Shown: positions 24,540 through 44,635 of the stretch, in pieces | Layout of the letters: every line of letters starts with the position of its first letter | How positions within the stretch are numbered: position 1 is the stretch's first letter | From: Catillopecten margaritatus gill symbiont | Lineage (GTDB): Bacteria > Pseudomonadota > Gammaproteobacteria > PS1 > Pseudothioglobaceae | Length of the DNA: 64,000 nt | Reading direction: 5' to 3' | Assembly (NCBI GenBank): GCA_037956075.1 | Contig: CP138327.1 | Coordinates: 1,054,001 to 1,118,000, forward strand | Program-made: the position numbers and the translations under genes | The notes under the pieces: model-generated | What the model saw: only the letters and a program-made list of their open reading frames with translations | Told to the model about the DNA's origin: nothing | Databases searched by the model: none

Positions 24540-24545
24540 ATCCGT

Positions 24546-24731
24546 TGTCTATTGTAGTGCGACTGGCTTTTGTCCCCTGAGCTGATAAATAAAAACCAAG
24601 GAAATGAGATAGGGTGCTATTGTGCAAGCCCGCCTTGCCTTTTGGTATTGAAGCGGGAAGCCTGCGGTAAACTTCGAATTTCCGCCTTGAACCTTATGGT
24701 TCAGGTTTAAAGTCACGCAATACAATAGACA
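24546..24731 (+). ncRNA. ssrS: 6S RNA
   Basis: Lies directly upstream of the formyl-THF cyclo-ligase gene, the conserved ssrS position. The closing stem pairs GTCTATTGTAGTGCGACT (from 24547) with AGTCACGCAATACAATAGAC (24711-24730). Conserved internal 6S sequences are visible: GTCCCCTGAGC after the 5' stem, then GAAGCCTGCGG and CGCCTTGAACC..GGTTCA on the 3' side. 6S mimics an open promoter and sequesters sigma-70 holoenzyme in stationary phase. About 186 nt. Confidence 0.9.
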
Positions 24732-24755
24732 CTCGAATTTTATAGGTTTTTTTCA

Positions 24756-34404: not shown

Positions 34405-34494
34405 ACGATTAACGATTAACGATTAACGATTAACGATTAACGATTAACGATTAACGATTAACGATTAACGATTAACGATTAACGATTAACGATG
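34405..34494 (+). repeat. Heptanucleotide tandem repeat (ACGATTA) running into the adhesin start codon
   Basis: Twelve perfect ACGATTA units from 34405 to 34488, with a related unit just before and a partial thirteenth unit (ACGAT) that forms the start codon ATG at 34492. It is preceded by three copies of an octamer (AAATAGTT, 34358-34381). No Shine-Dalgarno sequence separates the repeat from the ATG. All reading frames through it meet TAA, so it is not coding. Such repeats change copy number by slippage. Confidence 0.9.
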
Positions 34495-37400
34495 AAAACA
34501 CTATTAAAAAACGCCTGTTCAACTAATTATAATGCCACTAACCTAATTACCCATGTTGCGTGGGTGGGTGGGGCACATTCTAGAGCGCTAAGCAGGCTTA
34601 AGCATTTTTTAGCTTTTGGCGCTTTGACTCTATCACTTAACGTTACCTCAGGTGGTGAGATTAACCAGTTTGACAAAGAAGCTTATCTTAACCTTGGACA
34701 ACAGTACAGTGATAACAATACTCAAGTAGCTGTTAAAGAAGAAAACACAATTGATACACTCCTTAAAGAGATTGGCTCTTCTGTTCGTAATGCCTTGGGC
34801 GGTACAGATTCTGACAATGCCAATCAGCTTGGTAAAAAAATTACTGATAATTTAAAAAATAAAGCCAACAACACAGTGATTAATAAAACCGAAGGCTTTA
34901 TTAATCAAAAAGCCAATGAACTTGCTAATAGTATTGGCAACGGTAGAACTGAAATCTCTGTGCATAAATTAGAGTCTAATAACCCAACATATAGTCTTAA
35001 AACCATTCAACCATTGACTGAGCTTAATACAGATTCAACAGAGCTAACTTTTATCCAAGCTCAAATTAACTCTGGTGAAAACCATGGTGAGCGCCGTGAC
35101 ACTATTAATTTAGGCCTTGGACAGCGTTACCTACTTGAAGGTGGTCAGTCTATTGCTGGTATTAATCTATTCACTGATTATGAAACCGAGTCTAAGCACA
35201 AGCGTGCATCGCTAGGTTTGGAATACCAAAGAGCTAACTTTAGTGCCAATATTAATAAATACTACCCATTGTCAGATAAGAAAGTTATTGGTGATTACAC
35301 TGAAGAGCCACTAGCAGGACATGACATTAAACTAACGGGTCAAGTACCTTATCTATCTTGGGCAAAAATCAAAGGCACGCACTATTATTGGGATGCCAAA
35401 GTTGGCGACAATATTAAAGGTACTATTTTAGGTGTTGAAATAGAGCTTAATCCTTCTACTACGCTAGAAATAGGTACTGAAAACTCAAACACAGCTGAGC
35501 GTGCAAGCTATGCACGCCTAAGCGCACAACTGCCATTTAAAGATGGCGAAGCATTAACTAATTTTAAAGTCTCTGATCAAGCTTTTGCTAACTCAAATAT
35601 TGTTACCCTAACCGATCTTGACTTTGTTGAAAGATCTAACAAAATCCGTATTGAAAAACTCTTAAATGGTGTTAGCGTGGTTTTGGGTGAATACAACGCT
35701 CCTACAGTAGGCTCTACCTGTACACTTTACAATGCATCAAATGTTGCTATTGCCAATGGCTCTGGTGTAACAGGCGCTGATGGCAGTGTAACACTGTCAA
35801 ATGTTGTTCTACATGCTGGACTAGTTTCTAGCTCTTGTAATGCCATTGGTACCTATATCGATGAAGCCACAGGTGTGACCACTACTAGCTCTCCAGTGCT
35901 CAGAGCGGCAAAAATTTATTCAGGCACAGGAGACTTAATTCTTCTAGCCTCACCTCTATCTGAAATTGCTTATCAATTAGCTAATGCTGGTACTTTAGCT
36001 AATGATATAACCACTAAAAATACACAAATTGCAACAGCATTTGGTATAAGTGGCGTTGATTTTACCGCCACCATCCCAACGGATCTTAACACTATCACTG
36101 CCGCTAATGATGATGCGGGTAAATTTGGTACTGTGCTAGCAGCAGTCTCACAAATGTCTGAGAATGCAGGACATGATGATACACAGTCAACTGCAAATAA
36201 TGGTGGTGATAATATCCACGCCAATGAAACTATCCAAGAGCTTGTTGTTGATATGGCTGATGGTGATATTGATGGTATTGCAGATGGACAAGGAAAAACT
36301 CTTAATCTTAATCAAGCTATAAACAATTTTAAAACAGGCTCTGGTGCTAACAACCCAACATCAGATACTGGAAACACTAATGCAGGCAATGTAGATATTG
36401 TAACAACCACCCCTAGTGTTATTTTAAATAAAACCGCAGTAACTCTTGATGAAAACGGTGTAACAACTTACACAGTAGTCCTTAACACGCAACCAACTGG
36501 TAGTGTTACGATCACCCCAGTGAGTGCTGATACCGGTGCTGCCTCCGTATCAGGTGTAATGACCTTTACCACAGCTAACTGGAGCACAGCGCAAACAGTT
36601 ACAGTCACTGGTGTAGCTGATGTTAATGCAACTGATGAGACTGTAACCATTAGTCATACTATTACAGGTGCTGATTATGCTAGTGTGACTTCTGCTGATA
36701 TGATTGCTACCGTAGTGGATTTTAGCATCAGTGCCCAAACTCGCTCTATTGCTGAGAACTCTGCCAATGCAACTAATGTGGGTGCAGTTCTTGTAACCAC
36801 AGGTAGTCCAACTGGCTTTAGCATTACCAGCGGTAACACTAACACCGCCTTTGCGATTAGCAACAGTGGTCAAATCACCGTGGCCGATGTCAACCAGCTT
36901 GATTTTGAAACCACGACTAGCTACACGCTAGCAGTGCAGATCACCAAAGCTGACACCACGTCACAAAGTGCTAATATTACGGTTAATGTCACTAACGTTA
37001 ATGAGGGTAGTGCTTCGATCAGTGCCCAAACTCGTTCTATTGCTGAGAACTCTGCCAATGCAACTAATGTGGGTGCAGTTCTTGTAACCACAGGTAGTCC
37101 AACTGGCTTTAGCATTACCAGCGGTAACACTAACACCGCCTTTGCGATTAGCAACAGTGGTCAAATCACCGTGGCCGATGTCAACCAGCTTGATTTTGAA
37201 ACCACGACTAGCTACACGCTAGCAGTGCAGATCACCAAAGCTGACACCACGTCACAAAGTGCTAATATTACGGTTAATGTCACTAACGTTAATGAGGGTA
37301 GTGCTGTTTCGATCAGTGCCCAAACTCGTTCTATTGCTGAGAACTCTGCCAATGCAACTAATGTGGGTGCAGTTCTTGTAACCACAGGTAGTCCAACTGG

Positions 37401-40400
37401 CTTTAGCATTACCAGCGGTAACACTAACACCGCCTTTGCGATTAGCAACAGTGGTCAAATCACCGTGGCCGATGTCAACCAGCTTGATTTTGAAACCACG
37501 ACTAGCTACACGCTAGCAGTGCAGATCACCAAAGCTGACACCACGTCACAAAGTGCTAATATTACGGTTAATGTCACTAACGTTAATGAGGGTAGTGCTG
37601 TTTCGATCAGTGCCCAAACTCGTTCTATTGCTGAGAACTCTGCCAATGCAACTAATGTGGGTGCAGTTCTTGTAACCACAGGTAGTCCAACTGGCTTTAG
37701 CATTACCAGCGGTAACACTAACACCGCCTTTGCGATTAGCAACAGTGGTCAAATCACCGTGGCCGATGTCAACCAGCTTGATTTTGAAACCACGACTAGC
37801 TACACGCTAGCAGTGCAGATCACCAAAGCTGACACCACGTCACAAAGTGCTAATATTACGGTTAATGTCACTAACGTTAATGAGGGTAGTGCTGTTTCGA
37901 TCAGTGCCCAAACTCGTTCTATTGCTGAGAACTCTGCCAATGCAACTAATGTGGGTGCAGTTCTTGTAACCACAGGTAGTCCAACTGGCTTTAGCATTAC
38001 CAGCGGTAACACTAACACCGCCTTTGCGATTAGCAACAGTGGTCAAATCACCGTGGCCGATGTCAACCAGCTTGATTTTGAAACCACGACTAGCTACACG
38101 CTAGCAGTGCAGATCACCAAAGCTGACACCACGTCACAAAGTGCTAATATTACGGTTAATGTCACTAACGTTAATGAGGGTAGTGCTGTTTCGATCAGTG
38201 CCCAAACTCGTTCTATTGCTGAGAACTCTGCCAATGCAACTAATGTGGGTGCAGTTCTTGTAACCACAGGTAGTCCAACTGGCTTTAGCATTACCAGCGG
38301 TAACACTAACACCGCCTTTGCGATTAGCAACAGTGGTCAAATCACCGTGGCCGATGTCAACCAGCTTGATTTTGAAACCACGACTAGCTACACGCTAGCA
38401 GTGCAGATCACCAAAGCTGACACCACGTCACAAAGTGCTAATATTACGGTTAATGTCACTAACGTTAATGAGGGTAGTGCTGTTTCGATCAGTGCCCAAA
38501 CTCGTTCTATTGCTGAGAACTCTGCCAATGCAACTAATGTGGGTGCAGTTCTTGTAACCACAGGTAGTCCAACTGGCTTTAGCATTACCAGCGGTAACAC
38601 TAACACCGCCTTTGCGATTAGCAACAGTGGTCAAATCACCGTGGCCGATGTCAACCAGCTTGATTTTGAAACCACGACTAGCTACACGCTAGCAGTGCAG
38701 ATCACCAAAGCTGACACCACGTCACAAAGTGCTAATATTACGGTTAATGTCACTAACGTTAATGAGGGTAGTGCTTCGATCAGTGCCCAAACTCGTTCTA
38801 TTGCTGAGAACTCTGCCAATACAACTAATGTGGGTGCAGTTCTTGTAACCACAGGTAGTCCAACTGGCTTTAGCATTACCAGCGGTAACACTAACACCGC
38901 CTTTGCGATTAGCAACAGTGGTCAAATCACCGTGGCCGATGTCAACCAGCTTGATTTTGAAACCACGACTAGCTACACGCTAGCAGTGCAGATCACCAAA
39001 GCTGACACCACGTCACAAAGTGCTAATATTACGGTTAATGTCACTAACGTTAATGAGGGTAGTGCTGTTTCGATCAGTGCCCAAACTCGTTCTATTGCTG
39101 AGAACTCTGCCAATGCAACTAATGTGGGTGCAGTTCTTGTAACCACAGGTAGTCCAACTGGCTTTAGCATTACCAGCGGTAACACTAACACCGCCTTTGC
39201 GATTAGCAACAGTGGTCAAATCACCGTGGCCGATGTCAACCAGCTTGATTTTGAAACCACGACTAGCTACACGCTAGCAGTGCAGATCACCAAAGCTGAC
39301 ACCACGTCACAAAGTGCTAATATTACGGTTAATGTCACTAACGTTAATGAGGGTAGTGCTGTTTCGATCAGTGCCCAAACTCGTTCTATTGCTGAGAACT
39401 CTGCCAATGCAACTAATGTGGGTGCAGTTCTTGTAACCACAGGTAGTCCAACTGGCTTTAGCATTACCAGCGGTAACACTAACACCGCCTTTGCGATTAG
39501 CAACAGTGGTCAAATCACCGTGGCCGATGTCAACCAGCTTGATTTTGAAACCACGACTAGCTACACGCTAGCAGTGCAGATCACCAAAGCTGACACCACG
39601 TCACAAAGTGCTAATATTACGGTTAATGTCACTAACGTTAATGAGGGTAGTGCTGTTTCGATCAGTGCCCAAACTCGTTCTATTGCTGAGAACTCTGCCA
39701 ATACAACTAATGTGGGTGCAGTTCTTGTAACCACAGGTAGTCCAACTGGCTTTAGCATTACCAGCGGTAACACTAACACCGCCTTTGCGATTAGCAACAG
39801 TGGTCAAATCACCGTGGCCGATGCCAACCAGCTTGATTTTGAAACCACGACTAGCTACACGCTAGCAGTGCAGATCACCAAAGCTGACACCACGTCACAA
39901 AGTGCTAATATTACGGTTAATGTCACTAACGTTAATGAGGGTAGTGCTTCGATCAGTGCCCAAACTCGTTCTATTGCTGAGAACTCTGCCAATGCAACTA
40001 ATGTGGGTGCAGTTCTTGTAACCACAGGTAGTCCAACTGGCTTTAGCATTACCAGCGGTAACACTAACACCGCCTTTGCGATTAGCAACAGTGGTCAAAT
40101 CACCGTGGCCGATGTCAACCAGCTTGATTTTGAAACCACGACTAGCTACACGCTAGCAGTGCAGATCACCAAAGCTGACACCACGTCACAAAGTGCTAAT
40201 ATTACGGTTAATGTCACTAACGTTAATGAGGGTAGTGCTGTTTCGATCAGTGCCCAAACTCGTTCTATTGCTGAGAACTCTGCCAATACAACTAATGTGG
40301 GTGCAGTTCTTGTAACCACAGGTAGTCCAACTGGCTTTAGCATTACCAGCGGTAACACTAACACCGCCTTTGCGATTAGCAACAGTGGTCAAATCACCGT

Positions 40401-41922
40401 GGCCGATGTCAACCAGCTTGATTTTGAAACCACGACTAGCTACACGCTAGCAGTGCAGATCACCAAAGCTGACACCACGTCACAAAGTGCTAATATTACG
40501 GTTAATGTCACTAACGTTAATGAGGGTAGTGCTGTTTCGATCAGTGCCCAAACTCGTTCTATTGCTGAGAACTCTGCCAATGCAACTAATGTGGGTGCAG
40601 TTCTTGTAACCACAGGTAGTCCAACTGGCTTTAGCATTACCAGCGGTAACACTAACACCGCCTTTGCGATTAGCAACAGTGGTCAAATCACCGTGGCCGA
40701 TGCCAACCAGCTTGATTTTGAAACCACGACTAGCTACACGCTAGCAGTGCAGATCACCAAAGCTGACACCACGTCACAAAGTGCTAATATTACGGTTAAT
40801 GTCACTAACGTTAATGAGGGTAGTGCTGTTTCGATCAGTGCCCAAACTCGTTCTATTGCTGAGAACTCTGCCAATGCAACTAATGTGGGTGCAGTTCTTG
40901 TAACCACAGGTAGTCCAACTGGCTTTAGCATTACCAGCGGTAACACTAACACCGCCTTTGCGATTAGCAACAGTGGTCAAATCACCGTGGCCGATGCCAA
41001 CCAGCTTGATTTTGAAACCACGACTAGCTACACGCTAGCAGTGCAGATCACCAAAGCTGACACCACGTCACAAAGTGCTAATATTACGGTTAATGTCACT
41101 AACGTTAATGAGGGTAGTGCTGTTTCGATCAGTGCCCAAACTCGTTCTATTGCTGAGAACTCTGCCAATGCAACTAATGTGGGTGCAGTTCTTGTAACCA
41201 CAGGTAGTCCAACTGGCTTTAGCATTACCAGCGGTAACACTAACACCGCCTTTGCGATTAGCAACAGTGGTCAAATCACCGTGGCCGATGCCAACCAGCT
41301 TGATTTTGAAACCACGACTAGCTACACGCTAGCAGTGCAGATCACCAAAGCTGACACCACGTCACAAAGTGCTAATATTACGGTTAATGTCACAGATGTT
41401 GTAGAACTAGCCAGCATAACCATCGGCACTCAAACTTGGAGTGCATCTAATGTTTCATTAGTGCCTACTACAAATAATGTTCTAGGTACGGATTATTGGA
41501 ATGCTTATGTGGGTACTAATGGTTCTGGAGATACAAGCGATGAAGACGGTTATTACTACACTTGGGATGCAGCGATGAACGTTTGTCCTAGTGGCTGGAG
41601 TTTGCCATCTGATGCTGATTGGAAAGTCTTAGAAGGTCAATTAGGTATGAGTGTTGCTAATCAAGAAGCAACGGGTTGGCGTGGTACTGATGAAGGAACA
41701 AAACTAAAAGTAGGTGGCTCTAGTGGCTTCGAGGCTAAGTTAGCGGGCTACCGCTATACCAATGGTAGTTTCTACAATCGTGGCGACTACACGTTCTTGT
41801 GGAGTAGTACTGAGTCAGGTAGTGATGCCTACAGACGCTACCTGTACACCAGTTACGCCACGGTGTACCGCCATACCTTCAATAAGGCGTTCGGGTTTAG
41901 TGTTCGCTGTCTAAAGGATTAA
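34492..41922 (+). CDS. Giant inverse-autotransporter (intimin-like) adhesin with 16 cadherin repeats and DGR-variable lectin tip
   Basis: 2476 codons. Long signal sequence with hydrophobic core LSRLKHFLAFGALTLSL; helical spacer to about 180; inverse-autotransporter beta-barrel about 184-352 (TINLGLGQRYLLEGG, GINLFTDYETESKHKRASLG); an Ig/carboxypeptidase-like segment about 390-620; a Calx-beta-like domain about 640-742; 16 cadherin-type repeats 745-2300; then a Fib_succ_major / C-type-lectin-like domain 2301-2476 (WDAAMNVCPSGWSLPSDADW, GFSVRCLKD). The barrel would sit in the outer membrane with the repeats and lectin tip outside the cell. The tip matches a template repeat at 33095 with A-only differences. 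Start: ATG abutting a heptamer repeat. Sole large gene of the IS30 composite. Confidence 0.9.
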   Translation: MKTLLKNACSTNYNATNLITHVAWVGGAHSRALSRLKHFLAFGALTLSLNVTSGGEINQFDKEAYLNLGQQYSDNNTQVAVKEENTIDTLLKEIGSSVRNALGGTDSDNANQLGKKITDNLKNKANNTVINKTEGFINQKANELANSIGNGRTEISVHKLESNNPTYSLKTIQPLTELNTDSTELTFIQAQINSGENHGERRDTINLGLGQRYLLEGGQSIAGINLFTDYETESKHKRASLGLEYQRANFSANINKYYPLSDKKVIGDYTEEPLAGHDIKLTGQVPYLSWAKIKGTHYYWDAKVGDNIKGTILGVEIELNPSTTLEIGTENSNTAERASYARLSAQLPFKDGEALTNFKVSDQAFANSNIVTLTDLDFVERSNKIRIEKLLNGVSVVLGEYNAPTVGSTCTLYNASNVAIANGSGVTGADGSVTLSNVVLHAGLVSSSCNAIGTYIDEATGVTTTSSPVLRAAKIYSGTGDLILLASPLSEIAYQLANAGTLANDITTKNTQIATAFGISGVDFTATIPTDLNTITAANDDAGKFGTVLAAVSQMSENAGHDDTQSTANNGGDNIHANETIQELVVDMADGDIDGIADGQGKTLNLNQAINNFKTGSGANNPTSDTGNTNAGNVDIVTTTPSVILNKTAVTLDENGVTTYTVVLNTQPTGSVTITPVSADTGAASVSGVMTFTTANWSTAQTVTVTGVADVNATDETVTISHTITGADYASVTSADMIATVVDFSISAQTRSIAENSANATNVGAVLVTTGSPTGFSITSGNTNTAFAISNSGQITVADVNQLDFETTTSYTLAVQITKADTTSQSANITVNVTNVNEGSASISAQTRSIAENSANATNVGAVLVTTGSPTGFSITSGNTNTAFAISNSGQITVADVNQLDFETTTSYTLAVQITKADTTSQSANITVNVTNVNEGSAVSISAQTRSIAENSANATNVGAVLVTTGSPTGFSITSGNTNTAFAISNSGQITVADVNQLDFETTTSYTLAVQITKADTTSQSANITVNVTNVNEGSAVSISAQTRSIAENSANATNVGAVLVTTGSPTGFSITSGNTNTAFAISNSGQITVADVNQLDFETTTSYTLAVQITKADTTSQSANITVNVTNVNEGSAVSISAQTRSIAENSANATNVGAVLVTTGSPTGFSITSGNTNTAFAISNSGQITVADVNQLDFETTTSYTLAVQITKADTTSQSANITVNVTNVNEGSAVSISAQTRSIAENSANATNVGAVLVTTGSPTGFSITSGNTNTAFAISNSGQITVADVNQLDFETTTSYTLAVQITKADTTSQSANITVNVTNVNEGSAVSISAQTRSIAENSANATNVGAVLVTTGSPTGFSITSGNTNTAFAISNSGQITVADVNQLDFETTTSYTLAVQITKADTTSQSANITVNVTNVNEGSASISAQTRSIAENSANTTNVGAVLVTTGSPTGFSITSGNTNTAFAISNSGQITVADVNQLDFETTTSYTLAVQITKADTTSQSANITVNVTNVNEGSAVSISAQTRSIAENSANATNVGAVLVTTGSPTGFSITSGNTNTAFAISNSGQITVADVNQLDFETTTSYTLAVQITKADTTSQSANITVNVTNVNEGSAVSISAQTRSIAENSANATNVGAVLVTTGSPTGFSITSGNTNTAFAISNSGQITVADVNQLDFETTTSYTLAVQITKADTTSQSANITVNVTNVNEGSAVSISAQTRSIAENSANTTNVGAVLVTTGSPTGFSITSGNTNTAFAISNSGQITVADANQLDFETTTSYTLAVQITKADTTSQSANITVNVTNVNEGSASISAQTRSIAENSANATNVGAVLVTTGSPTGFSITSGNTNTAFAISNSGQITVADVNQLDFETTTSYTLAVQITKADTTSQSANITVNVTNVNEGSAVSISAQTRSIAENSANTTNVGAVLVTTGSPTGFSITSGNTNTAFAISNSGQITVADVNQLDFETTTSYTLAVQITKADTTSQSANITVNVTNVNEGSAVSISAQTRSIAENSANATNVGAVLVTTGSPTGFSITSGNTNTAFAISNSGQITVADANQLDFETTTSYTLAVQITKADTTSQSANITVNVTNVNEGSAVSISAQTRSIAENSANATNVGAVLVTTGSPTGFSITSGNTNTAFAISNSGQITVADANQLDFETTTSYTLAVQITKADTTSQSANITVNVTNVNEGSAVSISAQTRSIAENSANATNVGAVLVTTGSPTGFSITSGNTNTAFAISNSGQITVADANQLDFETTTSYTLAVQITKADTTSQSANITVNVTDVVELASITIGTQTWSASNVSLVPTTNNVLGTDYWNAYVGTNGSGDTSDEDGYYYTWDAAMNVCPSGWSLPSDADWKVLEGQLGMSVANQEATGWRGTDEGTKLKVGGSSGFEAKLAGYRYTNGSFYNRGDYTFLWSSTESGSDAYRRYLYTSYATVYRHTFNKAFGFSVRCLKD
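36724..41391 (+). repeat. Sixteen tandem cadherin-coding repeats (291 or 294 bp)
   Basis: Sixteen direct units, each coding about 97-98 residues (SISAQTRSIAENSANATNVG at the start, ANITVNVTNVNEGSA at the end). Units are nearly identical in DNA; differences are a GCTGTTTCG/GCTTCG length variant at the junction, GCA/ACA (Ala/Thr) in SANxTN and GTC/GCC (Val/Ala) in ADxNQ. The first unit has one extra synonymous change (CGC for CGT). Copy number is likely to be unstable and hard to assemble. Confidence 0.95.
41731..41910 (+). repeat. Variable repeat (VR) of the DGR at the 3' end of the adhesin gene
   Basis: Codes residues about 2414-2473 of the lectin-like tip. Against the template at 33095, Asn codons are replaced by TAC, TAT, TAC, TTC, GAT and TAC. 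Beyond the matched part the gene goes on with Tyr, Ser, Tyr, Tyr, His, Phe, Phe at spaced positions up to GFSVRC, the amino acids reachable from AAY by adenine changes. Position at the 3' end of a C-type-lectin-fold gene is the rule for DGR targets. Confidence 0.85.
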
Positions 41923-42461: not shown

Positions 42462-43617
42462 GGTGGATTCGACTCATAAGTGCACAACTCCCAATTGACG
42501 AGCATCAACACCCGTCATCTCAAAAAACACCTGGTAAGGTGTTTTAAATCCTAGACATTTTCTCGGTCTAGAATTTAATTTATTCACTGCTATTTTAACT
42601 TCATTGTAAGCAATATTTACCAAAGATATTGTCTTTGGGAAGTATTGCCGTAATAAGCCGTTAGCGTTTTCGTTTTGTCCACGTTCCCAGCTATGGTAAG
42701 GCTTAGCAAAGTAACTCTTACAATGGATTGTTTTATTAATTTTCTCATGTCCTGCGAACTCCTTGCCATTGTCATAGGTAATTGAATGTACAAAACCCTT
42801 AATAGGCTGAAGCAAGGTATTGATGGCAACACTAACACCGTCTTTGTGTTTGCTATTAAGCGGATACGCCAGCCTAAGCTTTGATATGCGCTCATCCAGC
42901 GTTACGATGGCACCTTTGTGGGCTTTACCAATAATAGTGTCCGCCTCCCAATGTCCAAATACTGTGCGATTATTAACTGCCTCAGGGCGCTGGTCAATAT
43001 CAATACGATTGGGAATGCCTGTGCGATTATGCGCGTAACCATAACGCTTTCTATAAGGCTTACCCTGATGTCTGAGGTGTTGATATAACAAGCCACCATC
43101 TGCTTTATCTTTGAGCAAATAACGATAGATGCTCTCATGGTGAAGTTGAATGACATTGTTGGCATTAAGCCAACCACAGACTTGTTCAGGCGACCAATCA
43201 AGTTTTAGACAATTGTCAATCAAGCGTTTACACTCAATGGTTAATTTAACAAACTTATCTTTGGCTTGATGTCTTTGCTGCGCAAAGCCATTAGCCTGAT
43301 TGTATCGATAGCCTCGCTTGCCCGTGTTACGGGCAATCTCTCTAATAATGGTAGAGTGGCTGCGATTAAGGTTTTGTGCGATTTTATTCTTAGACATGCC
43401 TTGTTTAATTCCAATCGCGATATAATGCCTCTCTTCAGAGGTTAGTTGCTTGTACATAGTGTTCAGCTCCGTTTAAGCAAATCAATCATTATAGATTGAC
43501 CGACCTCTGATTTTATTCAAAGGCTTGGTGTATTTTGCTTTTGGCTTGACCTAAAGGCCAAGCAAAATACACTAATGCTAATTAAACTTAGTTGTGCACT
43601 TATGATGCGAATTTACA
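42462..43617 (-). mobile_element. IS30-family element, copy 2 (right end of composite)
   Basis: 1156 bp, same orientation as copy 1 and differing at a handful of bases. Inner flank TAT (42459-42461), outer flank CTA (43618-43620), the reverse of copy 1, as expected for the right border of the composite. Confidence 0.92.
42474..43457 (-). CDS. IS30-family transposase (copy 2)
   Basis: 327 residues with the same HTH and DDE motifs as copy 1 and no frame damage. Two amino-acid differences from copy 1 (His in ERHYIAIG and Pro in RTGIPNRIDID). Which copy is ancestral to the site cannot be read from this alone. Either copy could mobilise the segment between them. Confidence 0.93.
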   Translation of the reverse strand: MYKQLTSEERHYIAIGIKQGMSKNKIAQNLNRSHSTIIREIARNTGKRGYRYNQANGFAQQRHQAKDKFVKLTIECKRLIDNCLKLDWSPEQVCGWLNANNVIQLHHESIYRYLLKDKADGGLLYQHLRHQGKPYRKRYGYAHNRTGIPNRIDIDQRPEAVNNRTVFGHWEADTIIGKAHKGAIVTLDERISKLRLAYPLNSKHKDGVSVAINTLLQPIKGFVHSITYDNGKEFAGHEKINKTIHCKSYFAKPYHSWERGQNENANGLLRQYFPKTISLVNIAYNEVKIAVNKLNSRPRKCLGFKTPYQVFFEMTGVDARQLGVVHL

Positions 43618-44316
43618 CTATTTTACAAACGACCTTTTATAAAGATGACTCATTTGTATTTTAATTTTTCCTTGTGAAATTTTTTCAGGCAACAAACTGG
43701 TTGCTAAATGTTTTTCTTTAATCGCAGAGTAGTCAAAACTTTTTTTAATTTCTTTAGTCACATGTTTATAAGTGGGTGGTATTAAAAATTGAACCTCTTT
43801 ACCCAGTTCCGTTATCAATCTTGCAGGAGGTGTTAAGTCAGAATCTGCCGAAATAACAATGGCTTTATCAAATTTATTCTTATGCGCTAAATCTACTGCT
43901 TTAATTGATAAGTTCACATCAGTTTCTTTTTCTTCGTGACCTGTAAATGTTTGTTTGCACTTCCTGCAAAACACAGTTTTGTCTTTAAATTTTCCAAAAA
44001 CTGTCTTGACTTTATTAAGCTCTAACGCTTTAACATAATCTTGATGCCTATCAACAGGGGAACTATTACTCCCCACAGTTACCTTATTTTTCCACTTGGC
44101 ATAAGCAGTAAAATAAAACACATCCACCAACATTTCATCTTTTTTAACAAAAAGTTGAGACAATTTATATAAGTCAACCCATTTCAAATAATTTTTATTT
44201 GGGTGTGTAATTGGTTGATTCTTTCTTTTTTGCGCATTATAGTGGCTGTTCAAATTACCGATAGCGTGGTACAAATTAAAACCATCTATAAAAACAATAA
44301 CCTTTTTCTTGCTCAT
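43618..44316 (-). CDS. NYN-domain (LabA/DUF88-like) putative RNase
   Basis: 232 residues. PIN/NYN-fold features: FIDGFNLYHAIGN near the N-terminus (first Asp), DVNLSIKAVDLAHKN and IVISADSDLTPPARLI (clustered acidic residues), and a CRKCKQTF zinc-ribbon-like pair. NYN proteins are metal-dependent ribonucleases, often in defence or RNA-processing loci. The stop codon TAG is exactly the CTA target triplet of the composite element, so the end of the gene was preserved on insertion. Preceded on the same strand by a consensus promoter and a leader hairpin-terminator. Probably once followed directly by the HNH-S24 gene. Confidence 0.85.
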   Translation of the reverse strand: MSKKKVIVFIDGFNLYHAIGNLNSHYNAQKRKNQPITHPNKNYLKWVDLYKLSQLFVKKDEMLVDVFYFTAYAKWKNKVTVGSNSSPVDRHQDYVKALELNKVKTVFGKFKDKTVFCRKCKQTFTGHEEKETDVNLSIKAVDLAHKNKFDKAIVISADSDLTPPARLITELGKEVQFLIPPTYKHVTKEIKKSFDYSAIKEKHLATSLLPEKISQGKIKIQMSHLYKRSFVK

Positions 44317-44332
44317 TTATTACCCCTCAAAA

Positions 44333-44362
44333 ACAAAAAACCCAGTGCACGAAGCACTGGGT
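44333..44362 (-). terminator. Intrinsic-terminator-like hairpin in the NYN gene leader
   Basis: Read on the minus strand: CCCAGTGC-TTCGT-GCACTGGG then TTTTTTGTTTTT, an eight-to-nine-base-pair stem with a T run, ending 17 bases before the ATG at 44316. A second small GCC-GAAA-GGC hairpin lies just upstream (44366-44375). Confidence 0.8.
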
Positions 44363-44390
44363 AAGGCCTTTCGGCGGATATATGTAAAAA

Positions 44391-44418
44391 ATTATATCAT
44401 TGTTTTCTATCTTGTCAA
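44391..44418 (-). promoter_or_regulatory. Consensus sigma-70 promoter for the NYN leader RNA
   Basis: On the minus strand TTGACA (44418-44413) is separated by 16 bases from TATAAT (44396-44391): perfect hexamers. Transcription would begin near 44384 and meet the hairpin-terminator about 50 bases later. Confidence 0.85.
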
Positions 44419-44472
44419 CACCTTTATCCCTAATCCAAAAATAGGGATTGCAAAGATAGTGCTACTTCCTTG

Positions 44473-44635
44473 GAGACCCCTGCATTGGGTATGGACATTG
44501 GATAGAAGTTAAATTTTATTCAGTCGGTAATTCTTACGAAGCCAGTCCTAGCAGGGTTAATGTAGGTTTTGTAAAAGTTGGCAAATAGATGAAAGTTGGC
44601 TTTTAGGCGGTATTCATACCCAATGCAGGAGTCTA
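44473..44635. mobile_element. 163-bp inverted-repeat mini-element
   Basis: Arms of 21 bases (GAGACCCCTGCATTGGGTAT from 44473; complement at 44615-44635 with two mismatches). The interior (AAAGTTGGCTTTTAGGCGGT and neighbours) recurs in the opposite orientation at about 54424-54520. No coding frame; a MITE-like repeat family. Confidence 0.65.

Follow-up and report, generated by a model that had tools for sequence, protein, structure and literature searches.

Does the DNA in front of an NYN nuclease gene of the Catillopecten margaritatus gill symbiont encode a small RNA that works with the nuclease, or only the signals that set expression of that gene? The locus lies in a stretch of 64,000 nucleotides of contig CP138327.1, called hereafter the window, and was compared with homologous loci of bacteria, phages and plasmids.

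The NYN gene and its leader

The gene (43618..44316, minus strand) is intact and encodes an NYN-domain (PIN-like) ribonuclease of 232 residues (PF01936, E 2.9e-14) belonging to the HEC-09 family: residues 4-215 align with positions 2-190 of the 203 positions of the PADLOC profile (E 8.3e-40), which was matched by all 68 NYN homologs scanned. The predicted catalytic acidic residues are essentially invariant, D11, N14, E129, K130, D133, D158 and D160 being kept in at least 145 of 146 homologs. An AF2 model of the window protein (pLDDT 94.7) has 2qip (VPA0982) as its closest solved structure. HEC stands for Hma-embedded candidate (PMC10855318). Antiviral activity was reported for several HECs (PMC12988326), and HEC-09 correlated with phage susceptibility in Pseudomonas in one survey (PMC12447246). 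In the literature searched, HEC-09 appeared only as a candidate, and no activity test of HEC-09 itself was found.

From the letters alone, the first-pass annotation had described perfect TTGACA-N16-TATAAT hexamers driving an RNA of about 50 nt, with a GAAA-loop hairpin and a terminator that stops 17 nt before the NYN ATG. Sequence and fold bear out each of these elements. On the minus strand, a sigma70-type promoter with an extended -10 (TGn) occupies 44391..44418 and matches at 12/12 positions, TTGACA lying at 44418-44413 and TATAAT, after a 16-nt spacer, reaching 44391. It is the sole 12/12 promoter within the scanned 42-47 kb, where about 12 weaker matches (at least 9/12) are expected by chance. 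The transcript would start near 44384. The covariance-model match and the fold predict an RNA of about 50 nt (44334..44384, minus strand, approximate ends), which reads, from 5', a AUAUAUCC flank, hairpin 1, a CUU spacer, the terminator hairpin and a U-tract. Hairpin 1 (GCC-GAAA-GGC in the predicted fold, 44366..44375, minus strand) is weak, with 3 bp versus a family norm of 7-9 bp. Hairpin 2 is an intrinsic terminator (44340..44362, minus strand), ACCCAGUGC-UUCGU-GCACUGGGU followed by UUUUUGUUUUU; its stem, from 44362 to 44340, has 9 bp, six of them G-C, with loop UUCGU and tail TTTTTGTTTTT. The first T-run stops some 17-18 nt 5' of the ATG (44316), and a Shine-Dalgarno-like GAGGGG (44323..44328, minus strand) lies 3' of the terminator. 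The fold of the RNA consists of exactly two hairpins and has a minimum free energy of -21.6 kcal/mol (z = -4.28) that none of 200 shuffled sequences equalled.

The NYN gene sits between an IS30-type transposase (42474-43457) and comM. When the comM loci of congeners were aligned, nothing left of 44737 was matched, which indicates that the NYN module is an accessory insertion. An imperfect palindromic, MITE-like repeat of about 160 bp (44473-44635) is present genome-wide in at least 16 nearly complete copies, and a separate repeat of about 45 bp (44428-44472) lies immediately upstream of the promoter. Elsewhere in the window are a 2476-aa protein, cadherin-like in appearance (34492-41922), with some 18 near-identical repeats of about 98 aa (DNA repeats of about 294 bp), and a 6S RNA (24543-24735; RF00013, 57.9 bits).

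Recurrence and covariation beside NYN homologs

A direct DNA search with the window leader returned no match in its own genome except itself, and a single-protein scan of genome contigs for NYN homologs gave no match. A profile search yielded 80 bacterial and 80 viral loci. These roughly 160 remote homologs come from phages, plasmids and many bacterial phyla, and one compact element keeps turning up around them, with a common layout: a promoter, a stretch of about 8 nt whose last base is C, hairpin 1, 0-5 nt, a terminator hairpin and a U-tract. Hairpin 1 mostly has 7-9 bp with a loop of 3-7, the terminator mostly 8-12 bp, and the median RNA is about 61 nt long. Most loci have the RNA within the NYN 5' UTR, its terminator 9-45 nt ahead of the start codon. 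The closest homolog, from the same genus (L003, about 45% identity), has a like layout and unrelated sequence, namely a hairpin AGGC-GUUAU-GCCU and then a 10-bp terminator right before the ATG. Terminators at that spot were also seen before remote homologs on Enterobacteriaceae and Methylobacterium plasmids, and a version of the module is found on small E. coli plasmids of 3.5-4.3 kb, NZ_CP099726 being one of the 3.5-kb family. At two small Enterobacteriaceae plasmids (L015:2200-2461 and L018:1000-1259), the NYN gene is preceded by a multi-hairpin RNA of about 180 nt (z about -6) that resembles two units plus a terminator.

Frequencies were measured with a rule-based finder; it was written after the sequences had been inspected, so that results are given for four thresholds. 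The element was called at 105, 98, 84 and 64 of 149 non-redundant NYN upstreams, versus 15, 6, 4 and 3 of 283 ORFs taken from those loci as controls. At the second threshold (98/149 versus 6/283) the Fisher test gave p of about 1e-50, and sense elements alone were found at 79/149 NYN upstreams and 2/283 controls. The window leader is not among the 98, because the finder demands 5-bp stems. In block-shuffled NYN upstreams the element was called in 0.1%. A promoter of at least 9/12 preceded 70% of 83 family RNAs, versus 17% of shuffled sequences. The NYN gene itself is usually monocistronic, a codirectional gene lying within 60 nt in 15/131 cases. A protein partner gene was ruled out, since no Pfam family was present more than twice among 92 NYN neighbours. 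The two-hairpin RNA is the sole constant neighbour.

Conservation of the leader beside NYN homologs, for which a covariance search had been proposed as the check, proved strongly positive. A covariance model (R1) was built from 12 RNAs, window excluded, and run on 100 loci. Beyond its training set it gave 30 matches at E<=0.01, of which 29 lay directly upstream of NYN (the exception being L066:1264). Among 49 R1 matches (E up to 0.5), in an alignment fitted to the structure, 90.6% of cells were paired versus 62% after shuffling, with 242 double-change cells versus 79 and a score of 0.652 versus 0.176; sliding the partners lowered the score from 0.65 to 0.07-0.10. The matches of a second model, R2, likewise aligned by structure, gave the same picture. 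A MAFFT alignment of 14 divergently oriented RNAs, which was not fitted to structure, had 93% of cells paired and double changes in 10/16 pairs, equalled by none of 500 shuffles. Both helices covary strongly, and for hairpin 1 this holds for 9/9 pairs among the R1 matches and 6/7 in the divergent set.

For the window itself the picture is less marked. R2, built without it, placed the leader (44384-44332) first of two matches in the window, at 20.7 bits (E 0.0067; runner-up 13.9). In the whole genome the leader came second, behind a plain terminator after a housekeeping gene (24.7 bits), others scoring about 18.7. The covariance score for the window alone is thus moderate evidence, since plain terminators reach 18-25 bits, which also limits the model as a specific detector. 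The rest of the case at the window is carried by the promoter and the position beside NYN.

Orientation, arrays and co-divergence

The RNA is not confined to the NYN transcript. At 16 loci called automatically, or 27 of 146 once hand labels are counted, it lies on the opposite strand and is transcribed away from NYN, from a start between the RNA and the gene, and most of these have a recognisable promoter of their own in that direction. R1 alone detected two of them (L064, E 2.6e-6; L087, E 0.0012). On a tree of 146 NYN proteins, 94 loci were labelled sense, 27 divergent and 25 (about 17%) as having no recognised RNA, some of the latter having a misassigned start; about 31 labels were assigned manually, for clear elements that the finder had missed. 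Orientation changed about seven to eight times on this tree; one label (L162) was wrong, so that the count of eight is best taken as about seven.

Most loci, the window included, carry a single unit, which at the window is sense to NYN. Tandem arrays of two or three units with unequal stems were found at six loci (L024, L040, L104, L105, L109 and L110), and at L025 a further copy stands alone some 300 nt upstream. Distances between RNAs and between proteins were correlated over 81 loci (Mantel 0.29, 0/1000 permutations; 0/500 below 45% protein identity), indicating that RNA and NYN travel together. Whichever strand encodes it, the conserved, covarying, promoter-bearing RNA is tightly linked to NYN genes of the HEC-09 type.

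Possible roles of the RNA and relation to known systems

On sequence grounds, the two-hairpin RNA is probably a working partner of the NYN enzyme, and perhaps a brake that keeps it off. The reading that we consider somewhat better than even is a self-contained module in which the RNA would bind NYN in trans and inhibit it, as in type III toxin-antitoxin systems and AbiF/RCd22. The strong promoter would yield mostly terminated RNA of about 50-60 nt, and occasional read-through past the terminator would give the NYN mRNA. By analogy with established systems, the excess of terminated RNA would hold NYN inactive in trans, until infection or stress upset the balance and released it. Transcription of the module, protein binding, inhibition, toxicity and a role in defence are all inferred.

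The first-pass annotation had left open a stable small RNA (guide, antitoxin or decoy) or an attenuator. An antitoxin or decoy is favoured over the attenuator because homologous RNAs are often divergent or arrayed, and a guide is disfavoured, since the parts that vary are base-paired stems. A leader acting in cis, whose terminator sets the NYN level and whose read-through is altered when hairpin 1 is cut or bound, by NYN or by some other factor, would agree with the 5' UTR position at the window and most loci, and with the lowering of abiF transcription by RCd22 (PMC12373285). Such a leader should always lie upstream of and codirectional with NYN, which is so at the window but not across the 146 loci. 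The divergent RNAs with their own promoters, the multi-unit arrays and the free-standing copy of L025 speak against it, and a cis attenuator cannot explain the divergent and arrayed loci. We regard it as unlikely overall; attenuation as an added role at sense loci, window included, is an alternative. The inhibitory module is weakened in turn by the single-unit loci, set against the repeat array typical of ToxIN, by the NYN genes that have no recognised RNA, by the 3-bp hairpin 1 of the window and the large share of its covariance score that comes from the terminator, and by the candidate status of HEC-09 and its correlation with phage susceptibility.

The RNA could also be a structural or activating cofactor (scaffold, decoy substrate or sensor) that NYN needs for activity. 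A conserved structure with freely varying stem sequences, which an RNA recognised by its shape would be expected to show, the tight RNA-protein co-divergence and the status of HEC-09 as a candidate defence gene are consistent with this, whereas excess RNA with terminator-limited expression is a typical antitoxin design, and the RNA has no free guide-like stretch; we hold such a cofactor to be rather improbable. Most improbable of all is that the terminator of the upstream gene and the promoter of NYN merely adjoin, with no function of their own. The window covariance score does come mostly from the terminator, and plain terminators score alike, but the hairpins directly follow a promoter, control genes seldom have a two-hairpin element, and hairpin 1 covaries. 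A broader proposal, that this cross-phylum ncRNA is the obligate partner of HEC-09 NYN proteins in an RNA-regulated immune or addiction system, where single or arrayed shape-recognised RNAs would hold or arm the nuclease, has in our judgement an even chance.

The nearest known systems share the layout and differ in the molecules. AbiF/RCd22, found in prophages, has a Sigma70/A promoter, a short structured RNA, an intrinsic terminator and read-through into an RNase-type gene, as seen here, and RCd22 restrains AbiF, acting in cis and in trans (PMC12373285). However, the protein is HEPN (Abi_2) there and NYN here, the RNA differs (no RF03085 match in the loci scanned), and the NYN RNA is often divergent. 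Type III toxin-antitoxin systems (ToxIN, CptIN, TenpIN) likewise have a small RNA and a terminator upstream of an endoribonuclease gene, and the window does have a terminator between RNA and RNase gene. Carriage by plasmids and phages is a further likeness, and some NYN loci have tandem units, where the window has a single one. In contrast, the protein is not of the ToxN/CptN/TenpN families (it is NYN by Pfam, its AF2 model resembles 2qip, and its fold differs from that of ToxN-type toxins), the RNAs have two hairpins with unequal stems, usually as a single unit, and toxicity of NYN would be supposed by analogy. What the window does have is the full NYN-associated arrangement, with promoter, two hairpins and U-tract beside HEC-09, hairpin 1 being of 3 bp. 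PADLOC HEC-09 is the same protein, listed there as a protein model, and no description of an RNA partner was found in the literature searched. DUF3800 motifs are gene-associated RNA motifs, with conserved structures upstream of one protein family. The NYN RNAs resemble them in position, but are without Rfam match at E<=1.

In Rfam 15, which includes the abiF RNA (RF03085), the leader was unmatched at the gathering threshold in the window, and the RNAs of L001 and some 24 related loci were unmatched at E<=1. No NYN protein with an ncRNA, a type III toxin-antitoxin system or a structured RNA was found in the literature searched, which left subscription papers mostly outside. The combination of an RNA with an RNase is a known idea; what appears to be new is this RNA family and its association with HEC-09. 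Should HEC-09 always need such an RNA, assays of the nuclease by itself would mislead, showing it as toxic or inactive, and a module of RNA and nuclease would have escaped notice despite its wide distribution, the RNA being short and serving also as a terminator. The E. coli plasmids that carry a version of the module make it directly testable in laboratory strains of E. coli.

Other NYN genes were seen along the way. The symbiont genome has a second member of the same family (G000:C1:390957-391433; L010:508-1992, minus strand), fused in frame to an apparent D-Ala-D-Ala ligase downstream of a murB-like gene, as also at L005, L009 and L013 (gene names assigned by eye). At these fusion loci, a divergent promoter and an RNA with a conserved UCUGGGCAAAGUA loop lie between the two genes. 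In related genomes, a different NYN subfamily (L006:1450-2058 and L011:1201-1788) likewise has a hairpin resembling a terminator no more than about 25 nt from its start codon. Plasmid matches H44-H49 (Agrobacterium, Shinella and others) are NYN homologs, possibly fusions, under Xre/MbcA/ParS (DUF2384) antitoxin-type annotations.
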